Shown in pieces: positions 30,745 through 55,016 of a DNA stretch of 61,632 nt. Numbering within the stretch: position 1 is the first letter of the stretch; each line of letters opens with the position of its first letter. Both the position numbers and the translations under genes were made by a program. Origin of the DNA: a virus; IMG/VR virus record IMGVR_UViG_3300049783_001456, positions 1 through 61,632 of that record; one strand, 5' to 3'. The notes beneath the pieces were generated by a model that saw nothing but the letters and a program-made list of their open reading frames with translations, made no database searches and was not told the origin of the DNA.

Positions 30745-31898
30745 GCGTGGCTGCCCACGCAAAGCTGAGCCCAAGCTCGGCTGAACGATGGATAAGTTGC
30801 CCTGCATCTATCCGGATGACGGAGGCAGCTCCCCCTGACGAGGGTTCCAGCTACGCCAACGAAGGTACTGCAGCCCACGAGATGGCCGAGCTGATGGCTC
30901 GGGAGCAGATCCTCGGCAGCATCACCAAGGCCCAGAAGACCAAGGCGCTCAAGGTTTGGCGGAAGCAGTACGACATCTCCGAAGAGGCCGAAGAAGATAT
31001 GGTCGTTCACGGACAGGGATATGTCGACTACCTGAAAGAACGGATGCTCGAGCACCCCGGTTCGGTCCTCCTCTTAGAGCAGCGCCTGCCGACAGGTATC
31101 AAGGATTCATGGGGCACCTCCGACTCGGTCATAGTGTCTTTCGACTACATCGAATCTTGCGACTACAAGTACGGTGCGGGAGTCAAGGTGGAAGCCGAAC
31201 GCAACCCACAGACCAGGCTGTATGGCGTAGGTGCTCTGGAAGCCTACGGAGATCTCCTTGGAGACGTCCAAATGGTGAGGCTCACCGTGTACCAGCCTCG
31301 CCTCAACCACGTCGTCTGGGAGGAGATCCCCGCGTCTGAGTTACGGGAATGGCGGGACAGCCTGATCCCCATAGCAGAATCTGCTCTTGGGCCAGACGCA
31401 CCTTTCGGTCCGAGTGATTCTGCTTGCCGTTGGTGTCCCGCTTCTGGTTCTTGCATGGCCCAGATGGAGTGGGCTACCGAGCGTGACTTCGGTGTGAAGC
31501 CAGACTTCATGTCGGAGGACGAGCTCGCCAAGTCGCTGGACGATATCCCACTCATAAAGAAGTGGTGTGCAGCGGTTGAATCCCACGCCTTGGACGCTGT
31601 GTATTCGAAGGGCCAAGAGATCCCTGGTTACAAGGTGGTCATGTCCGGAGGTAAGAGGTCAGTAACAGACTCCGAAGGCCTCATCAATACCGCAATCGCT
31701 ATCGGGTACACTCGTGACGAAGTGTCAAACACGAAGGCACGTGGGATAGGTGAGCTCGAGAAGATACTCAAGAAGGACTTCGGCTTGGTCGCTGGACCGT
31801 TCGTAACCAAGGGAACCGGCAGCCCATCGCTCGTCCCTGAATCGGACCGCCGCACAGCCATCAACCCCGAGACCCAGGCAGCGGAGGACTTCGCATGA
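30741..31898 (+). CDS. RecB/Cas4-like exonuclease (DUF2800)
   Basis: 385 residues. N-terminus LSPSSAERWISCPASIRM matches DUF2800. The PD-(D/E)XK core is WGTSDSVIVSFDYIESCDYKYG (Asp ... Asp-x-Lys). One N-terminal Cys (WISC) and a C-terminal set CRWC...SGSC form the four-cysteine iron-sulphur staple seen in Cas4 and AddB. It would resect double-strand ends for phage recombination, together with the ssDNA-binding protein at 32443. Confidence 0.88.
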   Translation: MSVAAHAKLSPSSAERWISCPASIRMTEAAPPDEGSSYANEGTAAHEMAELMAREQILGSITKAQKTKALKVWRKQYDISEEAEEDMVVHGQGYVDYLKERMLEHPGSVLLLEQRLPTGIKDSWGTSDSVIVSFDYIESCDYKYGAGVKVEAERNPQTRLYGVGALEAYGDLLGDVQMVRLTVYQPRLNHVVWEEIPASELREWRDSLIPIAESALGPDAPFGPSDSACRWCPASGSCMAQMEWATERDFGVKPDFMSEDELAKSLDDIPLIKKWCAAVESHALDAVYSKGQEIPGYKVVMSGGKRSVTDSEGLINTAIAIGYTRDEVSNTKARGIGELEKILKKDFGLVAGPFVTKGTGSPSLVPESDRRTAINPETQAAEDFA

Positions 31899-32419
31899 AC
31901 CACTTCGTGCAAACACAATCAGGTGAGCCGTTCTTCCCAACGCACCAGAACCCTGGCCAAGTGTTCATTGAAGACATCGCTCATAGCCTTGCCATGCAAT
32001 GCCGCTTCAACGGCCACACCGACAGGTTCTACAGCGTTGCCGAGCACTGCGTGTTACTATCACATGCGGTGTCGCCAAGGAACGCTCCGTGGGCACTGCT
32101 GCATGACGCAGCTGAGGCCTACATCGGGGACATGGTGTTTCCTCTCAAAGAGGAGATCCCCCAGTACAAGCAGATTGAAGACCCTATCATGGGTGTCATC
32201 TGCGCAAGGTTTGGGCTGGAAACCAACCAGCCCGAAGAGGTTACAGAGTACGACCGCAGGATTGTCATTGACGAGCGAGATGCGTTGATGGCAGCGACCC
32301 GTACTGTGTGGCCAGCCCTTGAGGGTTTCGACCCCCTGGGTGTCAACATTGTCGGTTGGAGCCCAGACTGGGCGAAGGCCGAATTCATGAGCCGGTTCCA
32401 CCAGCTCTTCACACGTTAA
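31895..32419 (+). CDS. HD-domain nucleotidase (YfbR/YfdR-like)
   Basis: 174 residues. The HD motif is FYSVAEHCVLLSHAV followed by ALLHDAAEAYIGD, with a later Asp in IVIDERDALMA. The start pattern (IEDIAHSLAMQCRFNGHTDR) is the common one in phage HD hydrolases that dephosphorylate dNMPs or act on modified nucleotides. In a phage with base modification it could remove unwanted nucleotides such as host dTMP. ATGA-coupled to the nuclease gene. Confidence 0.85.
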   Translation: MNHFVQTQSGEPFFPTHQNPGQVFIEDIAHSLAMQCRFNGHTDRFYSVAEHCVLLSHAVSPRNAPWALLHDAAEAYIGDMVFPLKEEIPQYKQIEDPIMGVICARFGLETNQPEEVTEYDRRIVIDERDALMAATRTVWPALEGFDPLGVNIVGWSPDWAKAEFMSRFHQLFTR

Positions 32420-33884: not shown

Positions 33885-35720
33885 GTGACAGACTTCCTCT
33901 ACATAGACATCGAGACCCGTTCCCGGGCGGACCTCAAGAGGCTGGGTGTGTACAAGTACACCGAGTGTCCCGACTTCTCCATCTTGATGGCTGCCTGGTC
34001 GGAGGATGGGGAGCCTGCGAAGATTGCTGTCGGCCACGACGAGATACTTGATATCCCTGGGCTGCTCGACCCACAGCAAACCAAGGTGGCTCACAACGCA
34101 CAGTTCGAGCGGCTGTGCTTGGGTGTACTCGTGGAGTCGCTCCAGGTTCCCGAGCAGTGGATAGACACGCAAGCACTTGCAGCAGAGTATGGGTTCCCTG
34201 TGAGCCTCAGCGCAGCCGCCAAGGCACTTGGGGTCACCGAGAAGGACGACGCTGGGGGCAAACTGATCCGGTTGTTCTGCATCCCTAAGAAGGATGGCAC
34301 CTGGAACGACTTCACCACCCACCCTATGGAGTGGCTCGACTTCATCGCATATTGCGAGCAGGATGTAGACACGATGGTGGAGGTACACCAGAAGCTGGGT
34401 GATTGGCCCAGTGAAGCAGAGCGCAAGGTGTGGAACGCTGACCAGCGTATCAACGACCGGGGGATGTCTATCGACCGGGAGCTGTGTATCGTCGCAGCGG
34501 AGACCGTCGAGGTCAACCGGATATCAGATAGCGCAGAGTTCCGCTTGTTGACTGACGTAGACAACCCACGCTCGGTTCAGCAGGTGAAGCGCTGGTCGGA
34601 GGAGGTCGGCCTGGACCTTCCGAACCTCAAAGCAGAGACCATCCAAGAAGCTATCGACGACCCCGATACCGACCCCGTCCACCGACGTGTGCTCGAGCTA
34701 CGGCAAGATCTTTCCCTGGCTGCTGGTGGTAAGTTCTCGGCAGCACTCGCCATCGTGTCGCCGGATGACCGCATACGTGGCGGGTTCCGCTTCTTCGGGG
34801 CTCATACAGGTCGCTGGTCAGGGCAACGAGTACAGCCGCAGAACCTCCCTCGAGCAAGCGTGGACAATACGGAGGCAGCCATCCTCGACCTCAAGATGGG
34901 TATGGGTGCTGACCCGTACACGCTCAAGGCTCTCGTTCGGGCGATGTTTGTCGGGCCGATTTCGGTCGTTGACTACGCATCCATCGAAGCTCGAGTGGTG
35001 TCTTGGATTGCTAACGAGGAGTGGGCGCTGGAAGCCTTCCGAGAGGGTCGTGATATCTACGTAGAGACGGCCAACCGTATGTCTACTCCCAGCAACCAGT
35101 TGACCCGTTTCCAAGGCAAGGTGGCCGTCCTAGCGCTTGGCTACAACGGAGGTGTTACTGCGCTCCGGGCGATGGGTGCAGAAGGAGACAACGATGACCT
35201 CCGGCGGCTGGTGAACGTGTGGCGCAAGGCCAACGCTCGGATCGTCAATCTGTGGTCGACGATGGAGGGTGCGATCGAGGACGGAGGCAAGGTCGGCCCA
35301 CACGTCAAGATCACCCGTCGTGGTTCCGACATGAAGATGCATTTGCCTTCCGGCAGGGCGATCCACTACCACGGAGTCAAGTGGGAGAAGTATGTTGTCG
35401 TGGACCCAGACACAGACAAGAAGCTACAGAAGCGAGGGTGGCGATACAGCGACCCCAAGCGTGGTGGGGCACGTATCGGCACCTACGGTGGACGCCTTGT
35501 GGAGAACGCCACTCAGGCTATAGCTCGGGACATCCTAGCGGAAGCGCTCGTGCGTCTGGACGAAGCTGGTTACCAAGTCACCGGCCACGTACACGACGAG
35601 GCCATCGTAGAGGGAACCGACCTCGAGGAGATCAACCGCATCATGACGCAGGTGCCCCGTTGGGGACGAGGCCTGCCTATCGACGGCGACGGATACGTCG
35701 CAGACAGGTACAAGAAATGA
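33885..35720 (+). CDS. DNA polymerase, family A
   Basis: 611 residues from GTG. A 3'-5' exonuclease domain with LYIDIETRS (ExoI) at about 5-13, AHNAQFE (ExoII) and the late YCEQDVDTM (ExoIII). The polymerase domain has motif A VDYASIEARV near residue 361, motif B RFQGKVAVLALGYNGG and motif C HVHDEAIVE near 567. It is compact, lacking a 5'-3' exonuclease, like other phage PolA enzymes. In this phage it may have to use 5-hydroxymethyl-dUTP in place of dTTP. Confidence 0.95.
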   Translation: MTDFLYIDIETRSRADLKRLGVYKYTECPDFSILMAAWSEDGEPAKIAVGHDEILDIPGLLDPQQTKVAHNAQFERLCLGVLVESLQVPEQWIDTQALAAEYGFPVSLSAAAKALGVTEKDDAGGKLIRLFCIPKKDGTWNDFTTHPMEWLDFIAYCEQDVDTMVEVHQKLGDWPSEAERKVWNADQRINDRGMSIDRELCIVAAETVEVNRISDSAEFRLLTDVDNPRSVQQVKRWSEEVGLDLPNLKAETIQEAIDDPDTDPVHRRVLELRQDLSLAAGGKFSAALAIVSPDDRIRGGFRFFGAHTGRWSGQRVQPQNLPRASVDNTEAAILDLKMGMGADPYTLKALVRAMFVGPISVVDYASIEARVVSWIANEEWALEAFREGRDIYVETANRMSTPSNQLTRFQGKVAVLALGYNGGVTALRAMGAEGDNDDLRRLVNVWRKANARIVNLWSTMEGAIEDGGKVGPHVKITRRGSDMKMHLPSGRAIHYHGVKWEKYVVVDPDTDKKLQKRGWRYSDPKRGGARIGTYGGRLVENATQAIARDILAEALVRLDEAGYQVTGHVHDEAIVEGTDLEEINRIMTQVPRWGRGLPIDGDGYVADRYKK

Positions 35721-36161: not shown

Positions 36162-36471
36162 CCAACTCAAGATCCGAAACTCAACGAAGAAGAACGGGAG
36201 CGTTCTATCGGAGGTCAAGTTTCCGCAGGGGTTGCCGTTCGAACATAGGAACCTGGGTAGGGTCTCCGTGAGCCGGGTTCGTATCTGGTCTCGTCCAGAT
36301 GGGAGGATGCACCTGGGTTCTATGAACATCGGAAACGGCAACGAACAGAAGTGGGTCGAGACTTCTCTGTTCGAATTCGACCCTCGGCAACTCATTGACG
36401 TCCTGGCCCCCCACGTACTCGAATCTGTAACTAAGTACAAGCCAGGTCATTTCGAAGGGAACGACGCATGA
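36148..36471 (+). CDS. Hypothetical protein
   Basis: 107 residues (MPVRSQLKIRNSTKKNGSVL). Basic N-terminal region, a beta-rich middle (RVSVSRVRIWSRPDGRMHLG), then LFEFDPRQLIDVLAPHVLES. Overlaps the previous gene by 14 bases and the next by four. Its place at the front of the modification genes hints at involvement, but no domain is recognised. Confidence 0.65.
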   Translation: MPVRSQLKIRNSTKKNGSVLSEVKFPQGLPFEHRNLGRVSVSRVRIWSRPDGRMHLGSMNIGNGNEQKWVETSLFEFDPRQLIDVLAPHVLESVTKYKPGHFEGNDA

Positions 36472-37508
36472 CTGATTGGCGACTCCCAGAGAACAAAGAG
36501 CACGCCTTCTTGGCTTTCTACTGGTTCCATCTCGAGCACCGCAGCCACCCAGGAATGGTGTACTCCTTCTTGCCGGCAATCGCCGACGCCTTCGACCTCG
36601 ACGACGACCAGCGTGCCTGGCTCGTGTGGCTGAACGGCAACACTCAGAACGCAGTGACTTCGCTGATGTTGCTCGAGGTTGCCCCGACGCCCAACGACTG
36701 GAAGAAGGCAGTCGACTTCTGGAACGAGAACTTCAAGAAGCTTGAGTGGGACACTGACCGTCGCCACCAGAAGTCCAAGTTCGGCGAGGCCACCGAGGCC
36801 TGGTTCATGGACTTCGGATACCGACCATCAACCGACTGGCTCAAAGCTGGCGCTCGAGGCTGGAGCCATACGTGGAAGCACGCCTTCAGCCAGCCGTACA
36901 TGGGCAGGCTCTCTAGCTGGTCGATGATCGAGTACGCACGTATCCTCCTGGGGCAAGATATCCCCGACTCCGACACGTGGATGCTCGAGGACAAGAGCGG
37001 TTCCAAGTCGCACCGGAATGGCATCGCCGTCGTCAAGGGATATGACGCCACTTACTGGGATGCCGACACCCCCGACTTGCTCGGCATAGTCGGCGAGCTC
37101 GAGGACTATGCAGACCACCTACTGGCTCGCGTCGACCACCCGGACGCCGGACGCCTCACCATGGAGTCGGCACTGTGTACGTTCAAGTCCTGGCACAAGC
37201 CGAACCGACGGTATCCGAACGTGTACGCCGACATGATGTACACCCGTATCAAGAAGGCAGAGGCTCGGTTCGACCGTACCTTCGACCTCCTCTGGGAGAC
37301 CCGAAAGTACGACCTCCCCGAGTACCTTCGACTCGAAGACCAGTCGACCGACCCAGGCGTTGCCGGGGTCAAACAGAACTGGTTCCTCGAGACTGGTGAG
37401 GTTCACTACCTCCACCACGTATCCGATCTCTTCGAGCCATCTGGCTTGGAGCTACAAATCATTGCTGGCGACAAGCTGGCCCCACGAAAGGACCAAACAT
37501 GGAGCTGA
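36468..37508 (+). CDS. Candidate amino acid:DNA transferase / aGPT-pyrophosphorylase-like protein
   Basis: 346 residues, mostly helical. Features include NTQNAVTSLMLLEVAPTPND near the N-terminus, WMDFGYRPSTDWLKAGARGW-like middle (actual AWFMDFGYRPSTDWLKAG), LSSWSMIEYARILLG and FKSWHKPNRRYPNVYADMMY. The helical, Trp-rich layout and the position beside a 5-hydroxymethyl-dU kinase, PLP enzyme and TS homologue resemble the alpha-glutamyl/putrescinyl-thymine pyrophosphorylase or amino acid:DNA transferase families, which displace pyrophosphate from activated 5-hydroxymethyl-dU in DNA. I infer this role from context and overall style. The first 10 bases of the next gene overlap it. Confidence 0.55.
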   Translation: MTDWRLPENKEHAFLAFYWFHLEHRSHPGMVYSFLPAIADAFDLDDDQRAWLVWLNGNTQNAVTSLMLLEVAPTPNDWKKAVDFWNENFKKLEWDTDRRHQKSKFGEATEAWFMDFGYRPSTDWLKAGARGWSHTWKHAFSQPYMGRLSSWSMIEYARILLGQDIPDSDTWMLEDKSGSKSHRNGIAVVKGYDATYWDADTPDLLGIVGELEDYADHLLARVDHPDAGRLTMESALCTFKSWHKPNRRYPNVYADMMYTRIKKAEARFDRTFDLLWETRKYDLPEYLRLEDQSTDPGVAGVKQNWFLETGEVHYLHHVSDLFEPSGLELQIIAGDKLAPRKDQTWS

Positions 37509-38221
37509 CCATCTGCGAGAAGTGGACCCTCTACTGCCCGGAACCAACCGAGGAAGGGCAGTGGTTCCTAGACTACGTGCTGCGTTCACCCAGAGATGCA
37601 GGCATTCACCTCACAGCAGGGTTGAACGCATACCAAGCGCTGTCCGAATTGGGTGTCAAACCTGATACAGCAATGGAGTACTTCGGCGGTATGGGTGCCC
37701 AGTCCGGGATGATCCAACACTTCTTCTCAGTACGTTCGCACCTGGTCCTCGACAACAGCGAGGAGGCAGTCAGGCACATCGAGTCGAACATGGAAGGGTA
37801 CGACGTCGTCGCTAGTTGCGAAGACAGCTACGACCCCGCCAGCTACCGGCCTGCCGACATCGTCGGGTTGGACTTCGGCGACCTCACCGTTTGGAAGACA
37901 CGGGAAGGAGAGAAGCATCGTGAGCTCCTCGACCGTGTCTTCGCCGGCAAGCCGAAAGGTGTTGTTCTGACAGACGTCGCCTGCCGGTATCTGCACCTGC
38001 ATCGGGAACGCTACGAAACGCTCCTCGGGGCTGGCACTTGTGCCGACTATCCAACGTATCTCGAGGCGCTCGCCGACCGGCTCGAGGAGATCTACGGATA
38101 CGTCATGGTGGCTGGGTTCCACCACCGTTGGTCTACCGTCATGGCGCTACGACCTGAAGGCGTGCGAGGCGAGTTCATCCCGACGCCGGAGTCGCCTGTC
38201 GGACTTGTGGTCACTCGATGA
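37499..38221 (+). CDS. SAM-methyltransferase-like protein
   Basis: 240 residues from MELTICEKWTLYCPEPTEEG. MEYFGGMGAQSGMIQHFF resembles the Gly-rich motif I of Rossmann methyltransferases; LVLDNSEEAVRHIE the acidic motif II; and IVGLDFGDLTVWK and GVVLTDVACRYL later strands. There is no NPPY or PC motif of base methylases, so the target could be the modified base or a metabolite. Overlaps both neighbours, so it belongs to the modification operon. Confidence 0.6.
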   Translation: MELTICEKWTLYCPEPTEEGQWFLDYVLRSPRDAGIHLTAGLNAYQALSELGVKPDTAMEYFGGMGAQSGMIQHFFSVRSHLVLDNSEEAVRHIESNMEGYDVVASCEDSYDPASYRPADIVGLDFGDLTVWKTREGEKHRELLDRVFAGKPKGVVLTDVACRYLHLHRERYETLLGAGTCADYPTYLEALADRLEEIYGYVMVAGFHHRWSTVMALRPEGVRGEFIPTPESPVGLVVTR

Positions 38222-39096
38222 AGACAAAGATCCACACAGAGCTCACGCCGGTAGAGTCCCGTGGTGGGCGTCTATGGAAACGTGAAGATGCACATCGCAA
38301 CGACTATGGGGTGAACGGTAGCAAGTACCGGGCATGTCGCCACCTACTGACCCAGGCCATCTTGGATGGGTACACACACGTCGTCACTGCCCAAGCCACA
38401 GCCAGCCCGCAGTCTTCGATCTGTGCTACGTTGTGTGAGGAGCTGGGTCTGGAATGCACTGTCGTTGTCGGAGCCAGTAAACCACACACCGCAATCAAGC
38501 ATCCGAACATCGCTATCGCTATGGCAGCAGGAGCCAACCTCGACACCGGTTGCCGAGTGGCCTACAACGGGACTCTTCAACCCTACGCTTCGAGGCTCGC
38601 TGAGGAGCTCGGAGCATATCAGCTGCCCTACGCCATCACCTACCCAACGAGCGGGACGAGAGAGGGACTCGAGGCCTTCCTCGCAGTAGGTGGAGCGCAG
38701 GTGGTGAACCTACCCGACAGCGTCGAACGTCTCGTCATCCCGTTCGGCTCAGCAAACACAGCTTGCGGGGTGCTCTACGGGTTGAACGAGAAACGACCAG
38801 CCAACCTCAAAGACATCTACTTGATGGAGATCGGACCGAGCCGAAGAGATTGGGCGATGGAGCGACTAGAGATAGTGGGTAAGGAGTTCGAGTTGACCAG
38901 CGTCAACACTCACTTCATCACGCTCCACGAGGTGTGGGCCAGCTACAGCGACCAGATGCCGGAGACGATGGAAGATATCGTGTTCCACCCATGGTACGAA
39001 GGGAAGATGATTCGGTGGCTCAATCTCGTTCAGCCTGATTGGTGGAACCTCCAAGACGAGACCACCTGCTTCTGGATCGTAGGTGGTCCATCGTGA
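38218..39096 (+). CDS. PLP-dependent enzyme, fold type II (ACC deaminase/D-Cys desulfhydrase-like)
   Basis: 292 residues. Near the N-terminus WKREDAHRNDYGVNGSKYRA corresponds to the K-R-E-D...NGGNKxRKL region of ACC deaminase-like enzymes, with Lys in NGSKYRA as the PLP Schiff-base residue. TAQATASPQSSICATLCEEL matches the Gly/Ser-rich substrate loop, and FGSANTACGVLYGL the PLP-phosphate-binding loop. In phages with hypermodified thymidine, PLP enzymes edit the amino acid attached to the base (for example decarboxylation). A fold-type-II member here is unusual. ATGA/GTGA coupled on both sides. Confidence 0.8.
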   Translation: MKTKIHTELTPVESRGGRLWKREDAHRNDYGVNGSKYRACRHLLTQAILDGYTHVVTAQATASPQSSICATLCEELGLECTVVVGASKPHTAIKHPNIAIAMAAGANLDTGCRVAYNGTLQPYASRLAEELGAYQLPYAITYPTSGTREGLEAFLAVGGAQVVNLPDSVERLVIPFGSANTACGVLYGLNEKRPANLKDIYLMEIGPSRRDWAMERLEIVGKEFELTSVNTHFITLHEVWASYSDQMPETMEDIVFHPWYEGKMIRWLNLVQPDWWNLQDETTCFWIVGGPS

Positions 39097-39272
39097 TCGA
39101 GTTCGAAGCCCAGTTCAAGAGCGACTGTGGCAACTGCGAGTTCCCGGTAGAGAAAGGTCAAGCTGCAACCTTTGAGGACAACGAAGCTGTACACATCAAG
39201 TGCCCCAAGGTTCGCCCAGCGTGCCCTGATTGCTGGCTGGTGCACGGCACGGCTCAGGAGTTCTGCGAATGA
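39093..39272 (+). CDS. Small zinc-ribbon protein in modification operon
   Basis: 59 residues from GTG. CGNCEFPVEKGQ, IKCPK and CPDCWLVHG supply two CxxC pairs plus extra Cys/His, a zinc ribbon reminiscent of a FYVE/YHP-like finger used to bind DNA. Overlaps both neighbours by four bases. May present DNA to the modification enzymes. Confidence 0.6.
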   Translation: MIEFEAQFKSDCGNCEFPVEKGQAATFEDNEAVHIKCPKVRPACPDCWLVHGTAQEFCE

Positions 39273-40162
39273 GGACTGATGACTTCCTCGACTTCGTCGT
39301 CGAGCGCCACCGCATCTGGGAACAGAGGCAGGCAGGCACTGCCCAACCTTGGACCGAAGACCCTGTGCTCGCCAACCGCAAGTTCACCAACGTCTTCCGG
39401 GTGCTCGATCCAGGCACTCAGTTCCTCTTGAAGGACCTCTTTGAGCCCGACCTCAACCCTCGGGACACCTTGATGCGAGCGTTCCTCTACCGGCATACAG
39501 GCAAGGTAGAGACGTGGGAGCTGCTGGACCTCATGGTCGGCGAATATCCGACAGTCCCGATGCTCGAAGACGTCCGTAAGATCTGGCATGGGTACCGGGA
39601 CACGAAGGCACCGTTCTTCACGAATGCGTACCTCGTCTATCCGCAATCTTCCACACCCGGTACAGACAAGCTCGACTCGATCGTCGACTTGACAAAGCGG
39701 CTGTTCACTCCTGGTTCGCCAGACGACATCATGCCGGAATGGCTCTCTGCTCAGACCCAGAAGGAGCGGTTCAAGATCCTTCGCCGCAACAAGGGCGTCG
39801 GCGACTTCATGTCAATGCAGATACTGACTGACTGGGGCTACCAATGTGGCGAAGATCGGGAAGACGAATTCCTCGTGCCTGGCCCTGGCTCTATCAAGGG
39901 AGCGAAGGCTCTCGACCCCGACGCCAAGACCATGGAAGTGGTGCGGCGTGTCGTGAAAGAAGTTCGTGGGGTAGCTTCTTCACCTCGGTTGGGGTACCGT
40001 TCACCAAGTCTCATGGACATCGGCTCTAATCTCCTCTGCGAGTGGAGCAAGTACGTGAGGTTCAGAGGGCAATCGTTGCCCAAGACCAACTACATCCCGG
40101 CTCACCCAGGTCCGCAACCGGACCCAGTGCTGCCGAGCTATTACACAGAGGAACTGATATGA
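39269..40162 (+). CDS. 5-hmdU-modification helical protein (HMUDK_hel / aGPT-pyrophosphorylase-like)
   Basis: 297 residues from MRTDDFLDFVVERHRIWEQR. The start matches the HMUDK_hel pattern very well: VERHRIWEQRQAG, then QPWTEDPVLANRKFTNVFRV, LDPGTQFLL. Further: RRNKGVGDFMSMQILTDWGY, DEFLVPGPGSIKGAKAL and SLMDIGSNLLCEWSKYVRFR. This family accompanies 5-hydroxymethyl-dU DNA kinases and is thought to take part in replacing the (pyro)phosphate on 5-hmdU with an amine. It is encoded separately from the kinase at 41819, one gene after the TS homologue. ATGA start. Confidence 0.78.
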   Translation: MRTDDFLDFVVERHRIWEQRQAGTAQPWTEDPVLANRKFTNVFRVLDPGTQFLLKDLFEPDLNPRDTLMRAFLYRHTGKVETWELLDLMVGEYPTVPMLEDVRKIWHGYRDTKAPFFTNAYLVYPQSSTPGTDKLDSIVDLTKRLFTPGSPDDIMPEWLSAQTQKERFKILRRNKGVGDFMSMQILTDWGYQCGEDREDEFLVPGPGSIKGAKALDPDAKTMEVVRRVVKEVRGVASSPRLGYRSPSLMDIGSNLLCEWSKYVRFRGQSLPKTNYIPAHPGPQPDPVLPSYYTEELI

Positions 40163-40410
40163 ACAAAGCGCAAGAGCTGGACCTGCTTATGGTAGACCCA
40201 CCGCCAGGGTCGCACCTCAAGATGAAATTGGTGTACCCAGGCAGCCCGAAGTCCTATGTCTACGTGGCCATCTCTCTAGGCACTCTTTGGTACCTCAGCG
40301 GTATCAGCGGGTCATTCCCGTCTTGGGCTTCCCTGGTTAACTGGATGCAAAACAAGAACGCCGAAGTAATTTCAATCCAAACCGCAACGTCCTGGGAGGA
40401 CCTACTGTAA
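40159..40410 (+). CDS. Hypothetical small protein in modification operon
   Basis: 83 residues (MNKAQELDLLMVDPPPGSHL), then LWYLSGISGSFPSWASLVNW and a short helix. Contains DPPPGS, which superficially recalls the DPPY-type motif of methylases but is in the wrong context for a complete enzyme. Coupled by ATGA upstream; next gene starts at its last stop base. Confidence 0.6.
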   Translation: MNKAQELDLLMVDPPPGSHLKMKLVYPGSPKSYVYVAISLGTLWYLSGISGSFPSWASLVNWMQNKNAEVISIQTATSWEDLL

Positions 40411-41822
40411 TGAACCACAACTACCAATTCAACAACGTCAACGACGCATTGCCTCGACTTATGGAGGCTCTGCTGGGAGACGGTGCGGAGTTCCCTTCTC
40501 GTGCCGGCAACACCAAAGAGTTGATGCACGTCGGTATCACCCTCCGGAAGCCTTGGCAGCGGGAGATCGCACTGCCTGGTCGCAAAGCCAACATCGCTGC
40601 GCAGATCATGGAGACCATGTGGGTGTTGTCGGGTCGCAACGACGTCGCAGGTCTCAGCCATTACCTGCCTCGAGCCATCGACTTCAGTGACGATGGCTTG
40701 GAGTGGCGGGCAGGCTACGGTCCTCGCCTGCGAAACTTCCACGGTGTTGACCAGCTTGCCTACCTCGTTGACACGATCGCTGACTCGCCTGGTTCACGGC
40801 AAGCGGTAGCGTCCATTTGGGACCCGACCGTCGACACTGAGCCCGGCAAAGACATCGCCTGCAACAACTGGATCTCGCTCAGTGCCAGGGACGGCAAGCT
40901 GGACGTTCACGTAGGTCTCCGCTCAAACGACGCCATGTGGGGTTGGAGCGGTATCAACGCTTTCGAATGGTCGGTACTACAGGAAGTAGTGGCACACATC
41001 GCAGGCCTGGAAATCGGATCACTCCACTTCTCCACAACCAGCTTCCACTTGTATGAGCAACACTGGGATAAGGCAAGTTCCCTCTCCAAGCTCAACGGCA
41101 ACTTCATGTACGGTGACTCCCCAAGGTTCAACCTGAGTGGGTACAACGTGCTGAGCCGTTTCGACGAGCTTGCCCAGGAGTGGTTCGCACTCGAAGAAGA
41201 CATCCGCTTCGGCCGGGAGATCGGCAACGCTGTCAACGACTTCCCCGAGCCGATGTTGCGGTCGTGGTTGCGGGTTCTTCAGTGGTACTGGTCAGGCGAG
41301 AGCATCTACCTGCAGCCTCTCCGACGATCAAACCTTTACCACGCTTGCCTGGAAGGTGTCAAGCCTGCCGGCAAGCACCAGGAAGAGCAGCTCGAGATCG
41401 TAGAACCCTACGACCGCATCGACGGTGAGTTCCTCGACTTCGTCAACCGACTGCACACCCAGAAGCACCTGGCATACGGTGACAGCTGGAAGCGTCGAGG
41501 CGAGTATATGATCCTCGCTAACATCGCCCGCAAGGTCGACCGCATCGAGAGCGGCAAGGACACTCCGGACGAGACCCAGGCCGACACCGCACAAGACCTG
41601 ATGGTCTACCTCGCCAAATACAAGTCTTGGCTCAGCGGTGGAGAAGGCAACCCAGACGAGGTCCGCCTCATCCTCCGGGGACAAGAGAGCCTCTACTTCT
41701 CTACGGTAGATATCGTGAGCTTGTTCGATAACCTAGAGAACGCTCACGGACCAGCCTTCAAGATGAGCGTGGTGGACAAACTACTGAGCCAAGCCTACAC
41801 CTTCGCCCTGTCGTTGTGGTGA
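40410..41822 (+). CDS. Thymidylate-synthase homologue (dUMP hydroxymethylase candidate) fused to DUF1599/Nmad1-like domain
   Basis: 470 residues, far longer than TS (about 260-300). Residues 1 to about 300 carry TS features: GSRQAVASIWDP (phosphate Arg, R130), ACNNWISL (C151, catalytic Cys), RSNDAMWGWSGINAFEWSVL (RSxDxxxGxxxN) and SLHFSTTSFHLYEQH (HxY). The Pro-Cys-His of TS is Ala-Cys-Asn here, and LGLPF is WGWSG, changes consistent with a dUMP/dCMP hydroxymethylase rather than a methylase. Residues about 348-420 (HTQKHLAYGDSWKRRGEYMI, NIARKVDRIE) match DUF1599/Nmad1. It probably makes 5-hydroxymethyl-dUMP from dUMP. Confidence 0.85.
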   Translation: MNHNYQFNNVNDALPRLMEALLGDGAEFPSRAGNTKELMHVGITLRKPWQREIALPGRKANIAAQIMETMWVLSGRNDVAGLSHYLPRAIDFSDDGLEWRAGYGPRLRNFHGVDQLAYLVDTIADSPGSRQAVASIWDPTVDTEPGKDIACNNWISLSARDGKLDVHVGLRSNDAMWGWSGINAFEWSVLQEVVAHIAGLEIGSLHFSTTSFHLYEQHWDKASSLSKLNGNFMYGDSPRFNLSGYNVLSRFDELAQEWFALEEDIRFGREIGNAVNDFPEPMLRSWLRVLQWYWSGESIYLQPLRRSNLYHACLEGVKPAGKHQEEQLEIVEPYDRIDGEFLDFVNRLHTQKHLAYGDSWKRRGEYMILANIARKVDRIESGKDTPDETQADTAQDLMVYLAKYKSWLSGGEGNPDEVRLILRGQESLYFSTVDIVSLFDNLENAHGPAFKMSVVDKLLSQAYTFALSLW

Positions 41823-42331
41823 CCCGCTCCATCTACATCATCGGTGCGCCAGGCTCCGGCAAGTCGACGGCCATGGCCCAACTCCTCGAGGGTTGGGCCA
41901 TGGGTCCGTACACTCGTTGGCAGCGGGAGATCTATGGACACTATCTCGAGCACCCCGAGAGAGGACGAGGAGCGTACCTCGGTCACCTTCGCCCCGAGTT
42001 CCCCGGAACGGACGCTCTCTCCCTCTCAGCAGGTCCTCGAGCGGTTGAATGGCTCGACGCTCTCCCACTCCTTGGGCTTGATTGGGTTCTGGCCGAAGGT
42101 GCTCGCCTCGCTCACATGGGTTTCCTACTTGCTCTCAACGAAGCCACAGACCTGACAGTCGTGTATTTGGATGTGGACCCAGAGGTTGCTGCCCAGAGGC
42201 GAATCGACCGGGGTGGGAAACAGCTTTCTGAAAAGTTCTGCAAGACGATGACCACTAAGTCGGCCAACATCTACAAGGGTTGCAAGGAAGCAGGCATAAC
42301 TATCGTGAAGGATGTTCCTGCCTTGAGGTAG
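41819..42331 (+). CDS. P-loop kinase, 5-hydroxymethyl-dU DNA kinase candidate
   Basis: 170 residues from a GTG overlapping the TS stop (an extra GTG lies one codon earlier). Walker A GAPGSGKST near residues 9-17; an acidic WVLAEGARLAH; VYLDVDPEVAAQRRIDRGGK with the lid arginines; and a C-terminal helix ANIYKGCKEAG. The compact adenylate-kinase-like form matches the 5-hmdU DNA kinases of the HMUDK family, which phosphorylate the hydroxymethyl group in DNA. Immediate adjacency to the TS homologue supports this over a nucleotide kinase. Confidence 0.75.
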   Translation: MTRSIYIIGAPGSGKSTAMAQLLEGWAMGPYTRWQREIYGHYLEHPERGRGAYLGHLRPEFPGTDALSLSAGPRAVEWLDALPLLGLDWVLAEGARLAHMGFLLALNEATDLTVVYLDVDPEVAAQRRIDRGGKQLSEKFCKTMTTKSANIYKGCKEAGITIVKDVPALR

Positions 42332-42990: not shown

Positions 42991-43386
42991 ATGCCCAAGC
43001 AACCCACCAACATCCGGGATCTCCGTGAGTCAAAGAACCTGTCGCAAGACAAGGTTGCTGCAGCTGCCGGGGTCACGTACAACGTCTTCGTCCGGATCGA
43101 AGAATGCTCTGGAAAGACCACCCCGCAGGAAGTCTCCAACGTGATGACTGCCCTGAAAGAGATGGAACCAGGCACTCGAAAGCTGGCCGGTCGCCCGTTC
43201 AAGGACGCTGCCAAGGAAGCTGCTGTACGTGCCGCTCGTGAAACCGGGAGCTCGGTTTCTGAGGCGCTCGGTATCGAGCTCATCAAGCCTGCCCGGAAGA
43301 GGGCTCCCGCCAAGAAGGCTGCAGCCAAGAAGGATCCCGCAAACTCCATGGCTTCTGTTCTCTCAAAGGGACGTGCGAAGAAATGA
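42991..43386 (+). CDS. XRE-type HTH protein with basic tail
   Basis: 131 residues from MPKQPTNIRDLRESKNLSQD. Residues 7-60 form an XRE/Cro HTH (LRESKNLSQDKVAAAAGVTY, FVRIEE). The C-terminal third is Lys/Ala/Pro-rich (PARKRAPAKKAAAKKDPANS), as in nucleoid-like proteins. It could be a phage repressor or a DNA-organising regulator. It is preceded by tRNA-like element B and ATGA-coupled to 43383. Confidence 0.75.
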   Translation: MPKQPTNIRDLRESKNLSQDKVAAAAGVTYNVFVRIEECSGKTTPQEVSNVMTALKEMEPGTRKLAGRPFKDAAKEAAVRAARETGSSVSEALGIELIKPARKRAPAKKAAAKKDPANSMASVLSKGRAKK

Positions 43387-43793
43387 ACCTGGGCAAGGTC
43401 AAGCGAACACGAGAAGTTCTTGAGCTCGTGTTCGCTGAGCGGGAATCCCAGGAAGCCCAGTACGGGGAAGAGAATATCGACCGTCCGTCGGGGACAGGGC
43501 CGAGCACTTGCTGGCTCGGACCCTACACGGGAGACTCAGCGGACCAGATCCAGCGGACCCTGCGAACCGATTACGAAGAGTTCGAAGACGAGACCGGTCG
43601 GGTCACCTGGGTCCACCTCATCCGGGAAGAGATCGCAGAAGCGTTTGAAGAAGACGACAACGCCCGCTTGGCATCTGAGATGATCCAAGTAGCTGCGCTC
43701 TGCGTGGCATTCGTAGAGACCTTGGATACACCCCTCAGGTCTCCTCTGGCAAGCGAAGAGCAACTTGCGAACCCCTTGCGCCAGACAACCTGA
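43383..43793 (+). CDS. MazG-like nucleotide pyrophosphohydrolase family protein
   Basis: 136 residues from MNLGKVKRTREVLELVFAER. ERESQEAQYG at the start and WVHLIREEIAEAFEEDDNAR followed by LASEMIQVAALCVAFVE give the acidic helix pattern (EExxE...E...D/E) of MazG/NTP-PPase-like phage proteins. An insertion (RPSGTGPSTCWLGPYTGDSA) is in the middle. It may sanitise the nucleotide pool, for example removing dUTP or dTTP. Last gene of the forward region. Confidence 0.65.
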   Translation: MNLGKVKRTREVLELVFAERESQEAQYGEENIDRPSGTGPSTCWLGPYTGDSADQIQRTLRTDYEEFEDETGRVTWVHLIREEIAEAFEEDDNARLASEMIQVAALCVAFVETLDTPLRSPLASEEQLANPLRQTT

Positions 43794-44260: not shown

Positions 44261-45211
44261 TTAGGTTGCGGCCAGATAGCCGAGCAGGACGGCACGGCCG
44301 GGTGTGGGTCTGTCGCCGCCTGGGTCGTATTGTTGAACATCACTCGAAACCGATCCGGCCACAATTCCTCCTGTTACTAAAACGGAGCCGTCATTTAACG
44401 TGCTCTGCTTGTGGTAGTAGCGGATGGCTGGAAGTACATCTTTAGATGTCCAAGTGTTAGTAGACAAATCATATTGTTGAACGTCAGCCGACGCCCCGTA
44501 GTCGACAAGTCCTCCTGTTACTAAAACTGTTCCGTCACCCAGCGTGCTCTGACCGTGGTAGTAGCGTTGTGCGGGTAAAGCTGCTTTAGATGTCCAAGTA
44601 TTAGTAGACAAATCGTACTGACGAACATCAGTATTAGCTGCTCCTCCTGTTACTAAAACGGTGCCGTCATTTAACGTGCTCTGGCCGTGCTGGCGCTGGG
44701 TGGCTGGCATTGCTGCTTTAGATGTCCAAGTGTTAGTTGACAAATCGTATTGTTGAACATCACTAGAAACCGATCCACCAACTTCACCGCCTGTAACTAG
44801 AACTGTTCCGTCATCCAGCGTGCTCTGACCGTGGTGGCGCCGGGTGGCTGGCATTGCTGCTTTAGATGTCCAAGTGTTAGTTGACAAATCGTACTGACGA
44901 ACATCAGCCGTAGTTGATCCTCCTGTTACTAAAACGGTGCCGTCATTTAACGTGCTCTGACCGTGGTGGTAGCGGGTGGCTGGCATTGCTGCTTTAGATG
45001 TCCAAGTGTTAGTTGACAAATCGTACTGACGAACATCACTCGAAACCGATCCACCAACTTCACCGCCTGTAACTAGAACTGTTCCGTCATCCAGCGTGCT
45101 CTGACCGTGGTAGCGCCGGGTGGATGGCATTGCTGCTTTAGATGTTACGGACTTGGCAACGAAAGCCGTTTCAGGGATCTGTGTAGCGAGTGCAAAAGCT
45201 AAAGCATCCAT
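44261..45211 (-). CDS. Kelch-repeat beta-propeller tail protein
   Basis: 316 residues. After MDALAFALATQIPETAF there are six kelch repeats of about 45-53 residues, each containing TSKAAMPATRxxHGQST, then LDDGTVLVTGG and DVRQYDLSTNTW. The repeats would form a six-bladed propeller on the tail fibre or baseplate that binds the host surface. The repeats are nearly identical in DNA. Codons (TTA, ACT, AAA, GTA) are more AT-rich than in the neighbours, pointing to recent transfer or expansion. The last helix DPGGDRPTPGRAVLLGYLAA is outside the propeller. Confidence 0.9.
   Translation of the reverse strand: MDALAFALATQIPETAFVAKSVTSKAAMPSTRRYHGQSTLDDGTVLVTGGEVGGSVSSDVRQYDLSTNTWTSKAAMPATRYHHGQSTLNDGTVLVTGGSTTADVRQYDLSTNTWTSKAAMPATRRHHGQSTLDDGTVLVTGGEVGGSVSSDVQQYDLSTNTWTSKAAMPATQRQHGQSTLNDGTVLVTGGAANTDVRQYDLSTNTWTSKAALPAQRYYHGQSTLGDGTVLVTGGLVDYGASADVQQYDLSTNTWTSKDVLPAIRYYHKQSTLNDGSVLVTGGIVAGSVSSDVQQYDPGGDRPTPGRAVLLGYLAAT
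44300..45150 (-). repeat. Kelch coding repeats
   Basis: Six near-identical units of about 140-160 bases. The phrase encoding TWTSKAAMPAT and the one encoding GTVLVTGG recur almost base for base, so gene conversion or slippage is likely. Confidence 0.9.
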
Positions 45212-53178: not shown

Positions 53179-53583
53179 CTAAGCCACGCTTCCTTCTGTG
53201 CTGATTTCGATGTCCCAGATTTGGGCACCGCTGCTGTTGCTGTCGGTATCACCCGGCATCACTGCCTTGAGGATACCGCCATAAACCATCGGCTGCCCCC
53301 AGGGGTTGCCGTCTGCGTCGAGAGGCTGACGACTGACGACGCACTTGGCGCTGCCGGTCTTGTTCATGAGGCTGCTCATGTAGCCCCAGTCCGCTCGGTC
53401 GCAAAGACGCGAGAGGGTCAGGTTGCCGATCGACTTCGACCCGCCGAGAGACACTTCAGGTTGCATCCCGCCTGGCTTGTACTTTGTCTCTTCGCTGTCG
53501 GAACCACCTCCCGAAAGCGTGTCCCACACGCCCATCGATTGCCCGTCAATTGTGACGGTGTTGCTCCATTGATCCTGCCTCAT
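53179..53583 (-). CDS. Tail tube protein
   Basis: 134 residues. MRQDQWSNTVTIDGQSMGVW, GGMQPEVSLGGSKSIGNLTL, then PMVYGGILKAVMPGDTDSNS and QIWDIEISTEGSVA fit the small XkdM-like tube proteins. Placed directly after the sheath, it polymerises to form the inner tube. Overlaps the sheath stop by one base. Confidence 0.85.
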   Translation of the reverse strand: MRQDQWSNTVTIDGQSMGVWDTLSGGGSDSEETKYKPGGMQPEVSLGGSKSIGNLTLSRLCDRADWGYMSSLMNKTGSAKCVVSRQPLDADGNPWGQPMVYGGILKAVMPGDTDSNSSGAQIWDIEISTEGSVA

Positions 53584-55016
53584 TACAGCTCCTCTGTGGT
53601 GGGAATCTTGACGAATTCCATGTAGACGATTTCGGCGAACTCTGTCATCCGCACGCCGATGACGGCAGAGAGTTTGCGTTCGGCGAGCGACTCTGGCGTG
53701 TTCACGGTGCTTCCCGTGTCCACGACGAAGGCTTCGGCGGGGGTATCGCCGAACAACGCTCCGAGGTTGTAGTAACCGAGAAGCATGCCTGTGAGGACAC
53801 CTTGGTACTCGGCGATCTTGGCCTTAGTGATCTGAGTGAAGACGAAGGGTTCTGCCTTCTCGGCTGCGTCTGCTTCGAGAGCCATTCGCAGCCGAGCGCT
53901 CGCAGCGCTCAACCATCCAGCGGTCGAGCCGTTAGGACTGACCATGGTTCGGTACCCATACAGCCGTTGAGTGCCACCTACTTCTCGGAAGACGTTGACG
54001 CCTGCCAGGTTGAGGGTGCCTCGTTCGGTGTCGCTCCAGTTGACTCGGTTCAAGCCCAGGCTGAAAGATGGGATTCCGTTGACACCTGCAGCAGGCTCGT
54101 TGGGGTTCCCTGTGGCTGCGTCGTGTGCAGCCATGAGAGCTGCGACAACAGCGCTCGGAGGGACGATACGGGTGGTGCCGACAGTAGCACCCGAGATGAC
54201 GTTCCAACCCTCTACGAGGAAAGCGTAGGACATCTCCTGGTCTGTCAGCGTGGCTTTGACCGCAGTTGAAGCGTTGACGAGGTCAGCCGCAACACTGCTG
54301 TCTGCAGAATCGATCAGTGCGAACCGGTTGGTTACAGCTGCGTGCTTGACTACTCCGGTGTGTGCAGCCGTCGTGGTCGAGCCTGGGATTGAAACCTGCC
54401 CAGCGCCTGCGCCTGCGGGAATGAGATTCAACGCTGCGATGCGGTGAACGTCGGTGATGTTTGCGCGATCGTCGTCGCCACCAGCCAGGTCTTTTGCCGT
54501 TGCAGCAGCAGGTGCCACAGAGCCGACTGCACGGAGCCGGATGTAAGCGTTGGTCGCTGCCCAGGTAACTGCCTCGGTGGGCAGCGTGAACGGGGGAGAA
54601 GTCTCCAGGAGGGTGGTGTCTTCGTAGATGGCCAGGGTGAACCGGGCATCAGCGGTAACCGCGACGAGGACCGAGTAGTCCGAGGTGCCTTCGCCGACGC
54701 TGTCAGCCTCGAGGCTGTCTGCCGCAGCAGCACCTTCAAGAGCGACGGTCGCCTTTGCGGCAGCTGGCCCGACGACGCGAATCATATTGACTGCGACGCC
54801 ACCGTTGCGGAAGTATGTCTCGACCGAGTCACGAACACCATAGGCGACTCGTGCGCCGAAGTGCTTGTCGAAGTCGGTCAGGTTCTTCAGCAGGCGGGCA
54901 ACATCCGTCGGACCACGCTCAGCGAGAGCTGCAATGTGCCAGGTGCCCGTCGGGACGGTGCCTCCTGGGGTCGGTGCTGCAGCTCTGCTGACGATCAGTG
55001 TACCTGGGGTCGTCAT
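53583..55016 (-). CDS. Tail sheath protein
   Basis: 477 residues. The N-terminal region TPGTLIVSRAAAPTPGGTVP, TWHIAALAERGPTDVARLLK and VETYFRNGGVAVNMIRVVGP is the typical sheath start. C-terminal GYRTMVSPNGSTAGWLSAAS, LRMALEADAAEKAEPFVF and FAEIVYMEFVKI are the conserved sheath core. Its presence defines the contractile tail. ATGA-coupled with the small gene upstream. Confidence 0.93.
   Translation of the reverse strand: MTTPGTLIVSRAAAPTPGGTVPTGTWHIAALAERGPTDVARLLKNLTDFDKHFGARVAYGVRDSVETYFRNGGVAVNMIRVVGPAAAKATVALEGAAAADSLEADSVGEGTSDYSVLVAVTADARFTLAIYEDTTLLETSPPFTLPTEAVTWAATNAYIRLRAVGSVAPAAATAKDLAGGDDDRANITDVHRIAALNLIPAGAGAGQVSIPGSTTTAAHTGVVKHAAVTNRFALIDSADSSVAADLVNASTAVKATLTDQEMSYAFLVEGWNVISGATVGTTRIVPPSAVVAALMAAHDAATGNPNEPAAGVNGIPSFSLGLNRVNWSDTERGTLNLAGVNVFREVGGTQRLYGYRTMVSPNGSTAGWLSAASARLRMALEADAAEKAEPFVFTQITKAKIAEYQGVLTGMLLGYYNLGALFGDTPAEAFVVDTGSTVNTPESLAERKLSAVIGVRMTEFAEIVYMEFVKIPTTEEL

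Follow-up and report, generated by a model that had tools for sequence, protein, structure and literature searches.

A putative thymidine-hypermodification operon carrying a methyltransferase-like gene in an IMG/VR virus record

Genes at the locus

The IMG/VR virus record IMGVR_UViG_3300049783_001456 was analysed over its whole length of 61,632 bases, which is called the window below. Between positions 36468 and 42331 it carries eight co-directional open reading frames (ORFs) without internal stops, which an initial annotation, made from the sequence alone, had taken for an operon producing hypermodified thymidine in the phage DNA. The genes are:

36468..37508, plus strand: ADDT, putative amino acid:DNA transferase of the aGPT-Pplase2 clade (PF18724, phrog_3271)
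37499..38221, plus strand: MT, class I S-adenosylmethionine (SAM)-dependent methyltransferase-fold protein, probable side-chain tailoring enzyme (fold model, co-occurrence)
38218..39096, plus strand: PLP, fold-type-II pyridoxal 5'-phosphate enzyme, putative side-chain decarboxylase (phrog_3650)
39093..39272, plus strand: ZR, small cysteine-rich zinc-ribbon-like protein, probably a passenger (phrog_1581, 4.6e-6)
39269..40162, plus strand: HEL, HMUDK_hel protein (aGPT-Pplase1) without a P-loop, probable DNA-recognition partner (PF18723)
40159..40410, plus strand: U83, protein of 83 amino acids of unknown function, passenger or accessory (weak match to phrog_1342, 1.5e-4)
40410..41822, plus strand: TS, thymidylate synthase-family enzyme, predicted 5-hydroxymethyl-dUMP (5-hmdUMP) synthase (PF00303, residues)
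41819..42331, plus strand: KIN, P-loop kinase, predicted kinase of 5-hydroxymethyldeoxyuridine (5-hmdU) in DNA (PF18751)

The overlapping arrangement noted at the outset was confirmed, the successive junctions sharing 10, 4, 4, 4, 4, 1 and 4 bases, and an extra ORF of 107 amino acids overlaps ADDT by 4 bases. Part of the region has an exact counterpart (12,243 of 12,243 bases identical) in an IMG/VR contig recovered from a different metagenome, and a set consisting of a DNA polymerase gene (POL), HEL, TS, ADDT, PLP and KIN occurs again in over ten further viral contigs, for the most part in this order; the operon is therefore not a product of chance. With high confidence, the operon is predicted to encode a thymidine hypermodification system that proceeds via 5-hmdU, as had been proposed, the support coming from homology and not from chemistry. 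ZR and U83 were considered as pathway enzymes and dropped, since other cassettes lack both: apart from a weak and distant match in L017 (L and G numbers denote the viral records or loci compared) ZR was not found in other cassettes, and U83 is confined to the window virus and its identical contigs.

The TS-family enzyme and the source of 5-hmdU

The TS enzyme matches Thymidylat_synt (PF00303; E 2.2e-20, HMMER) and retains the nucleophilic cysteine (the equivalent of Cys146), the phosphate-binding arginine and the uracil-recognizing asparagine (the equivalent of Asn177). Because all these residues of the dUMP site are kept, dUMP should be its substrate. At the positions of Trp80 and Trp83 of E. 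coli ThyA, alanine and phenylalanine are present in the window enzyme as well as in that of Salmonella phage ViI, and methionine and tyrosine in that of Pseudomonas phage M6. The tryptophan of ThyA aids the hydride transfer that yields thymine, and its loss therefore fits a hydroxymethylase. The top match among solved structures is a CMP 5-hydroxymethylase (1.8e-25), with the best thymidylate synthase at 2.2e-13.

Many phages carry TS-family genes (1,945 records), and the homologue might be read as an ordinary thymidylate synthase with unrelated genes around it, in a phage whose DNA contains normal dT. This is very improbable, given that both tryptophans are replaced as in ViI, that the enzyme scores 39 bits against E. 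coli ThyA (22% identity) versus 134 against the ViI protein and 123 against that of M6, and that the operon with ADDT and HMUDK_hel is conserved. The enzyme thus lacks Trp80/Trp83 and, in keeping with the initial annotation, does not group with ThyA; by its residues and its nearest relatives (ViI, M6, CMP hydroxymethylase) it falls with the 5-hmdUMP synthases rather than with the dTMP synthases, and a 5-hmdUMP synthase is what it is predicted to be. It also carries a C-terminal extension of about 200 amino acids. Among the profiles that had been put forward as checks, PF18723, PF18724 and PF00303 were all matched in the operon, and PF07659 was not detected in this extension in a search with seven relatives. 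The Tet_JBP oxygenase (PF12851), another potential source of 5-hydroxymethyluracil (5-hmU) in DNA, is absent from the window and was seen in G018, G019, G023-G025 and Mycobacterium phage BrownCNA.

The kinase and its HMUDK_hel partner

KIN matches Ploopntkinase3 (PF18751; E 9.6e-18) and contains the Walker A motif GAPGSGKST. In keeping with the initial annotation, it is not a deoxynucleoside monophosphate (dNMP) kinase. The proposed resemblance to 5-hmdU DNA kinase stood as far as the P-loop kinase fold is concerned, but not at the level of the Pfam family: PF18748, the family of the characterised 5-hmdU DNA kinase, has no match anywhere in the window. Nine records were tested and the two families never occurred in one record. 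M6 and ViI have PF18748 (annotated as 5-hmdU DNA kinase) without PF18751, and the window, G001, G004 and Glutamicibacter phage Montesquieu have PF18751 without PF18748. In the cassettes with ADDT and PLP that were seen, the PF18751 gene lies directly downstream of PLP or elsewhere within the cassette. The simplest reading is that PF18751 would take over from PF18748 the activation of 5-hmdU in DNA. By the profile matches, the kinship of KIN to the M6 and ViI enzymes is that of P-loop kinases only, and because PF18748 is lacking, the system is a variant and not a plain member of the ViI/M6 type.

HEL matches PF18723 (E 8.4e-45). It accompanies TS, or ThyX in Microbacterium phage Golden, and it was not found in the records tested in which a Tet_JBP oxygenase takes the place of TS (TET/JBP type). 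No solved structure matches HEL. We infer that it recognizes or flips the target bases in DNA that fully contains 5-hmdU, and that it has no role in phosphotransfer. A distant paralogy of HEL and ADDT was considered and rejected, as profile comparison gave a probability of 0.2%.

In two named phages HEL occurs in other company. In Golden (gp54-gp55; L048 8819-10289) the HMUDK_hel gene overlaps a PF18751 kinase gene annotated as terminase small subunit; ThyX is present, no ADDT is annotated nearby, and many Microbacterium phages have HEL. The DNA of Golden possibly contains phosphorylated or otherwise modified 5-hmdU. Brevibacterium phage LuckyBarnes (L008 8995-13010) combines HEL with a TS 41% identical to that of the window and two annotated glucosyltransferases, and has neither kinase family; its DNA perhaps contains glycosylated 5-hmdU.

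The amino acid:DNA transferase and the PLP enzyme

ADDT matches PF18724 (E 1.9e-11; 44.6 bits versus a cut-off of 26.2) and phrog_3271 (1.5e-57). It is 60% identical to the ADDT of Montesquieu and matches orf00247 of ViI at 1.4e-20, and a phmmer comparison gave no match to the ADDT of M6. Among solved structures only two matches, both unrelated, were above E 0.1.

The assignment of the PLP gene to fold type II was upheld by its match to phrog_3650 (7e-67) and by its homology to orf00226 of ViI (3e-44); the match to PALP (PF00291; 9e-7) is below the family cut-off, and the M6 protein is matched weakly (5.3e-7). Lys36 in the motif NGSK is invariant across eight proteins and is the expected Schiff-base lysine. 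PLP enzymes reportedly decarboxylate the amino acid adduct, according to Lee et al. 2022. As a homologue of orf00226, the window enzyme belongs with the side-chain tailoring enzymes.

Its profile is closest, among PDB structures, to 1-aminocyclopropane-1-carboxylate (ACC) deaminase and D-cysteine desulfhydrase and not to the classical decarboxylases. The enzyme might then make or rearrange the free amino acid, or eliminate or deaminate the side chain; the carboxylate would be kept and MT might esterify or N-methylate the product, for which the gene order ADDT-MT-PLP could place MT before PLP. This alternative is unlikely in view of the homology to the ViI protein, since the ViI base, 5-(2-aminoethoxy)methyldeoxyuridine (5-NeOmdU), is an O-linked serine skeleton minus its carboxylate (PMC6449724, PMC11721090). 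Decarboxylation thus stays the preferred role of PLP.

The methyltransferase-like protein

The truly new element of the operon is MT, which none of the family libraries recognized. It has no match in Pfam, PHROGs or NCBIfam and no relatives beyond chance in named phages, and a pattern scan of 84,980 genomes of bacteria and archaea confirmed none within its sensitivity; no paper on it was found in the literature, of which the coverage was incomplete. Identical MT proteins are encoded by IMG/VR contigs from two other metagenomes, one being the contig with the 12,243-base match.

The initial description of the protein as methyltransferase-like is nevertheless backed by a confident AlphaFold2 model and by Foldseek. 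The model was built from eight sequences, with a predicted local distance difference test (pLDDT) score of 89.3 and a predicted template modelling (pTM) score of 0.89, and replaced an earlier one from 4 sequences (pLDDT 70). Foldseek returned SAM-dependent methyltransferases with probability 1.00, among them the tRNA methyltransferase Trm1 (3axs) at a template modelling (TM) score of 0.62; numerous N-, O- and C-methyltransferases of small molecules scored about 0.5. In BFVD, two AdoMet_MTase proteins of uncultured phages were matched with TM scores of 0.81 and 0.74. Invariant in the 8 sequences are E60, F62, G63, G64 and G66 of motif I (E60-x-F-G-G-x-G66), D109 and D125, and an acidic residue lies at the end of strand 2. 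As modelled, MT has a class I SAM methyltransferase fold with the positions of the SAM site kept.

The fold search also returned CmoA and 3-amino-3-carboxypropyl transferases, and a phage carboxymethyltransferase acting on DNA cytosine is known (PMC12783734). MT might by analogy transfer a non-methyl group derived from SAM (from carboxy-SAM, or 3-amino-3-carboxypropyl), giving a larger side chain. As ordinary methyltransferases dominate the matches, and as no carboxy-SAM synthase was recognized in the window, in a search that was not exhaustive, this is improbable, and methyl transfer is the preferred activity of MT.

Distribution of MT and of the cassette

Two genes upstream of the operon bear on the comparison and on the pathway:

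33885..35720, plus strand: family A DNA polymerase (POL), upstream neighbour in most cassettes (identity to phage polymerases)
29584..30231, plus strand: putative dCMP deaminase, likely to supply dUMP to the TS enzyme (PF00383, 6.2e-21)

A scan of IMG/VR with ADDT gave 27 loci, and most of those of sufficient length have the POL-HEL-TS-ADDT-PLP-KIN cassette. In other contigs POL lies directly upstream of the cassette; the window and L022 have the variant order ADDT-MT-PLP-HEL-TS-KIN. Records with MT were gathered from MT scans and a whole-record search, which together yielded 15 distinct viral records. ADDT, PLP and KIN are visible in 14/15, that is, in all that can be tested, G005 ending inside TS. 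Comparison of 14 MT proteins showed that the ten from TS-type records share no more than 72% identity with each other and that the four from TET/JBP-type records form a single clade (85-93% identity), so that at least 11 lineages can be counted. In the window, L022 and L054-L057 the MT gene is flanked by ADDT and PLP, in L024 and L025 by POL and HEL; in the remaining records it is a few kb distant.

Cassettes with ADDT, PLP and KIN and without TS and HEL carry Tet_JBP where tested; the oxygenase was found in G023-G025. L054-L057 are of this type and have ADDT, MT, PLP and KIN without HEL; in the two contigs of this kind that were read fully on that side, a ParB-like gene precedes the module. 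L041-L045 and L054-L057 combine ADDT-PLP-KIN with Tet_JBP, often with a ParB-like gene and always without HEL, and would, from their gene content, couple that same back end to a source of 5-hmU acting after replication. In BrownCNA, gp02 (L009 785-1759) is annotated as queuine tRNA-ribosyltransferase, yet it matches Tet_JBP (5.5e-6), and its neighbours are ADDT and a PF18751 kinase that bears the name terminase small subunit. Despite these misleading names, the Coopervirus genes resemble a cassette for thymidine hypermodification. An association of MT with TS (10/14 TS-type versus 0/5 TET/JBP-type records; Fisher 0.011) was dropped, as a later MT scan found four TET/JBP-type cassettes with MT.

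This distribution bears on the view that the product is simply the ViI base 5-NeOmdU, or a close decarboxylated amino acid adduct, and that MT is unrelated and acts on another DNA base, RNA or protein. TS, HEL, ADDT, PLP and KIN would be enough for a ViI-like pathway, and MT is missing in some cassettes and several kb off in others. Where contigs are long enough, however, MT occurs only in records with ADDT and PLP, it holds the slot between these two genes across two different front ends, and by eye its conserved blocks contain neither the DPPY nor the PC motif of DNA N- and C5-methyltransferases. An unrelated MT is therefore rather doubtful, though slightly less so than a PLP enzyme that leaves the carboxylate in place. 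An MT that acts in the pathway is preferred.

Proposed pathway

Gene identities, residues, fold, co-occurrence and gene order are observed; the reactions, the amino acid, the order of the PLP and MT steps and the final structure are those that we infer as follows. The dCMP deaminase would supply dUMP, from which the TS-family enzyme would make 5-hmdUMP, to be polymerized into DNA as 5-hmdU. KIN, guided by HEL, would phosphorylate the 5-hydroxymethyl group at selected sites, and with ADDT an amino acid would displace the (pyro)phosphate. PLP would strip the carboxylate, as is expected in ViI, and MT would add a methyl or other SAM-derived group to the side chain. An example of the product would be an N-methylated 5-(aminoalkoxy)methyl- or 5-aminomethyl-dU. 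Very probably, an amino-acid-decorated base takes the place of some of the thymine in the phage DNA.

The acceptor of MT is most likely the amino acid side chain of the adduct and not the nucleotide, because MT stays with ADDT and PLP whichever route makes 5-hmU. The order ADDT-MT-PLP may allow MT to act before decarboxylation, of which it is no proof. A methylated amine on a 5-substituted dU is the likely product. On the whole, the operon probably makes an amino-acid-derived hypermodified thymidine that is modified by MT and differs from both 5-NeOmdU and the M6 base 5-(2-aminoethyl)deoxyuridine (5-NedU).

In the initial annotation a new base had been argued from the presence of a fold-type-II PLP enzyme and the lack of a visible radical-SAM gene. 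No radical-SAM gene was indeed detected across the whole window. The argument itself fails, as fold-type-II PLP enzymes are present in M6 and ViI and ViI has no detectable radical-SAM enzyme either. The idea survives on another ground: a product beyond 5-NeOmdU and 5-NedU is plausible because MT recurs in the ADDT-PLP-kinase module.

Several points weigh against this proposal. KIN belongs to a family other than the characterised one. The ADDT proteins of the window and ViI share only about 25% identity, too little to predict the amino acid. MT is optional, since four cassette-bearing records (15-53 kb) and Montesquieu lack it, and it lies outside the cassette in at least six genomes. The nearest PDB folds of MT (TM 0.5-0.6) differ widely in substrate and so do not point to one acceptor atom. 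To our knowledge, no chemistry has been described for any member of this clade.

In tRNA, wobble uridines can carry a glycine-derived side chain that ends as methylaminomethyl. By analogy, and as a tentative suggestion that has somewhat less than even chances, the product may be a base of a new class, in which an amino acid adduct of 5-hydroxymethyl-dU has been decarboxylated and methylated from SAM. It would be the DNA counterpart of the methylaminomethyl-type wobble uridines (for the tRNA side, see PMC9626948). A portable KIN-ADDT-MT-PLP module would make it, supplied either by a 5-hmdUMP synthase ahead of replication or by a TET/JBP oxygenase once the DNA has been replicated.

Neighbouring genes and possible host

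The structural genes in the window include those for a major head protein, a terminase, a tape measure protein and a tail sheath protein (53583-55016; phrog_23, 2.4e-29); because of the tail sheath, the window virus should be a contractile-tailed phage. Its polymerase is closest, among phages, to those of Montesquieu (50% identity) and LuckyBarnes (48%), a similarity which suggests an actinobacterial host. An HD-type protein (31895-32419) is weakly YfbR-like (0.0073), and an HD protein weakly similar to it (0.0016) adjoins the TS gene of M6; the window protein is possibly a dNMP phosphatase that lowers dTMP. A protein of 136 amino acids of unknown function and without a Pfam match (43383-43793) is kept shortly downstream of the cassette in G001 (9e-32) and G004 (7e-22). 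Beside the tail genes, on the minus strand, an ORF of 316 amino acids (44261-45211) consists of repeated VLVTGG...STNTWTSKAAMPA units that are Kelch-like by eye.

Comparison with known systems

What is new here is the PF18751 kinase in place of PF18748 and an MT not seen in the well-studied systems; the recurrence of MT beside the same genes in at least 11 phage lineages suggests a still undescribed DNA base. If so, the tailoring steps of phage thymidine (decarboxylation, radical-SAM rearrangement, acetylation) would be extended by methyl transfer from SAM. The new base would differ in charge or basicity and could let the phage DNA escape restriction and other defences that read DNA, and the enzyme would be a new one for site-selective DNA chemistry. 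The pathway divides into a front end, for which the TS family and TET/JBP are interchangeable, and a shared back end (PF18751 kinase, ADDT, PLP and optionally MT). This split, with HEL missing from the TET/JBP front end, makes the roles of the uncharacterised PF18751 kinase and of HMUDK_hel directly testable. Lee et al. 2022 reportedly predicted that tailoring genes occur in many combinations in viral metagenomes.

Salmonella phage ViI (Ackermannviridae), with 5-NeOmdU, shares the W80A/W83F TS and homologous ADDT and PLP. It differs in its PF18748 kinase, in the lack of MT and in having its genes scattered instead of in one operon. Pseudomonas phage M6 (Yuavirus), with 5-NedU, likewise clusters ADDT, a fold-type-II PLP enzyme, a P-loop kinase, HMUDK_hel and TS. 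Unlike the window it has a PF18748 kinase, no MT, an ADDT without detectable similarity to that of the window and a radical-SAM enzyme (weak match, 1.1e-6), M6 being the only one of the records tested with such a match. Glutamicibacter phage Montesquieu (GenBank OV696619) has POL-HEL-TS followed by ADDT-PLP-KIN, with PF18751 kinases as in the window; it differs in having two kinases in tandem and no MT. The TET/JBP-type cassettes of Coopervirus mycobacteriophages and uncultured relatives have ADDT, PLP and the PF18751 kinase in common with the window, and L054-L057 also have MT between ADDT and PLP. In these cassettes 5-hmU would arise in the DNA itself through the Tet_JBP oxygenase, often accompanied by a ParB-like protein, and neither HEL nor TS is present in those tested.

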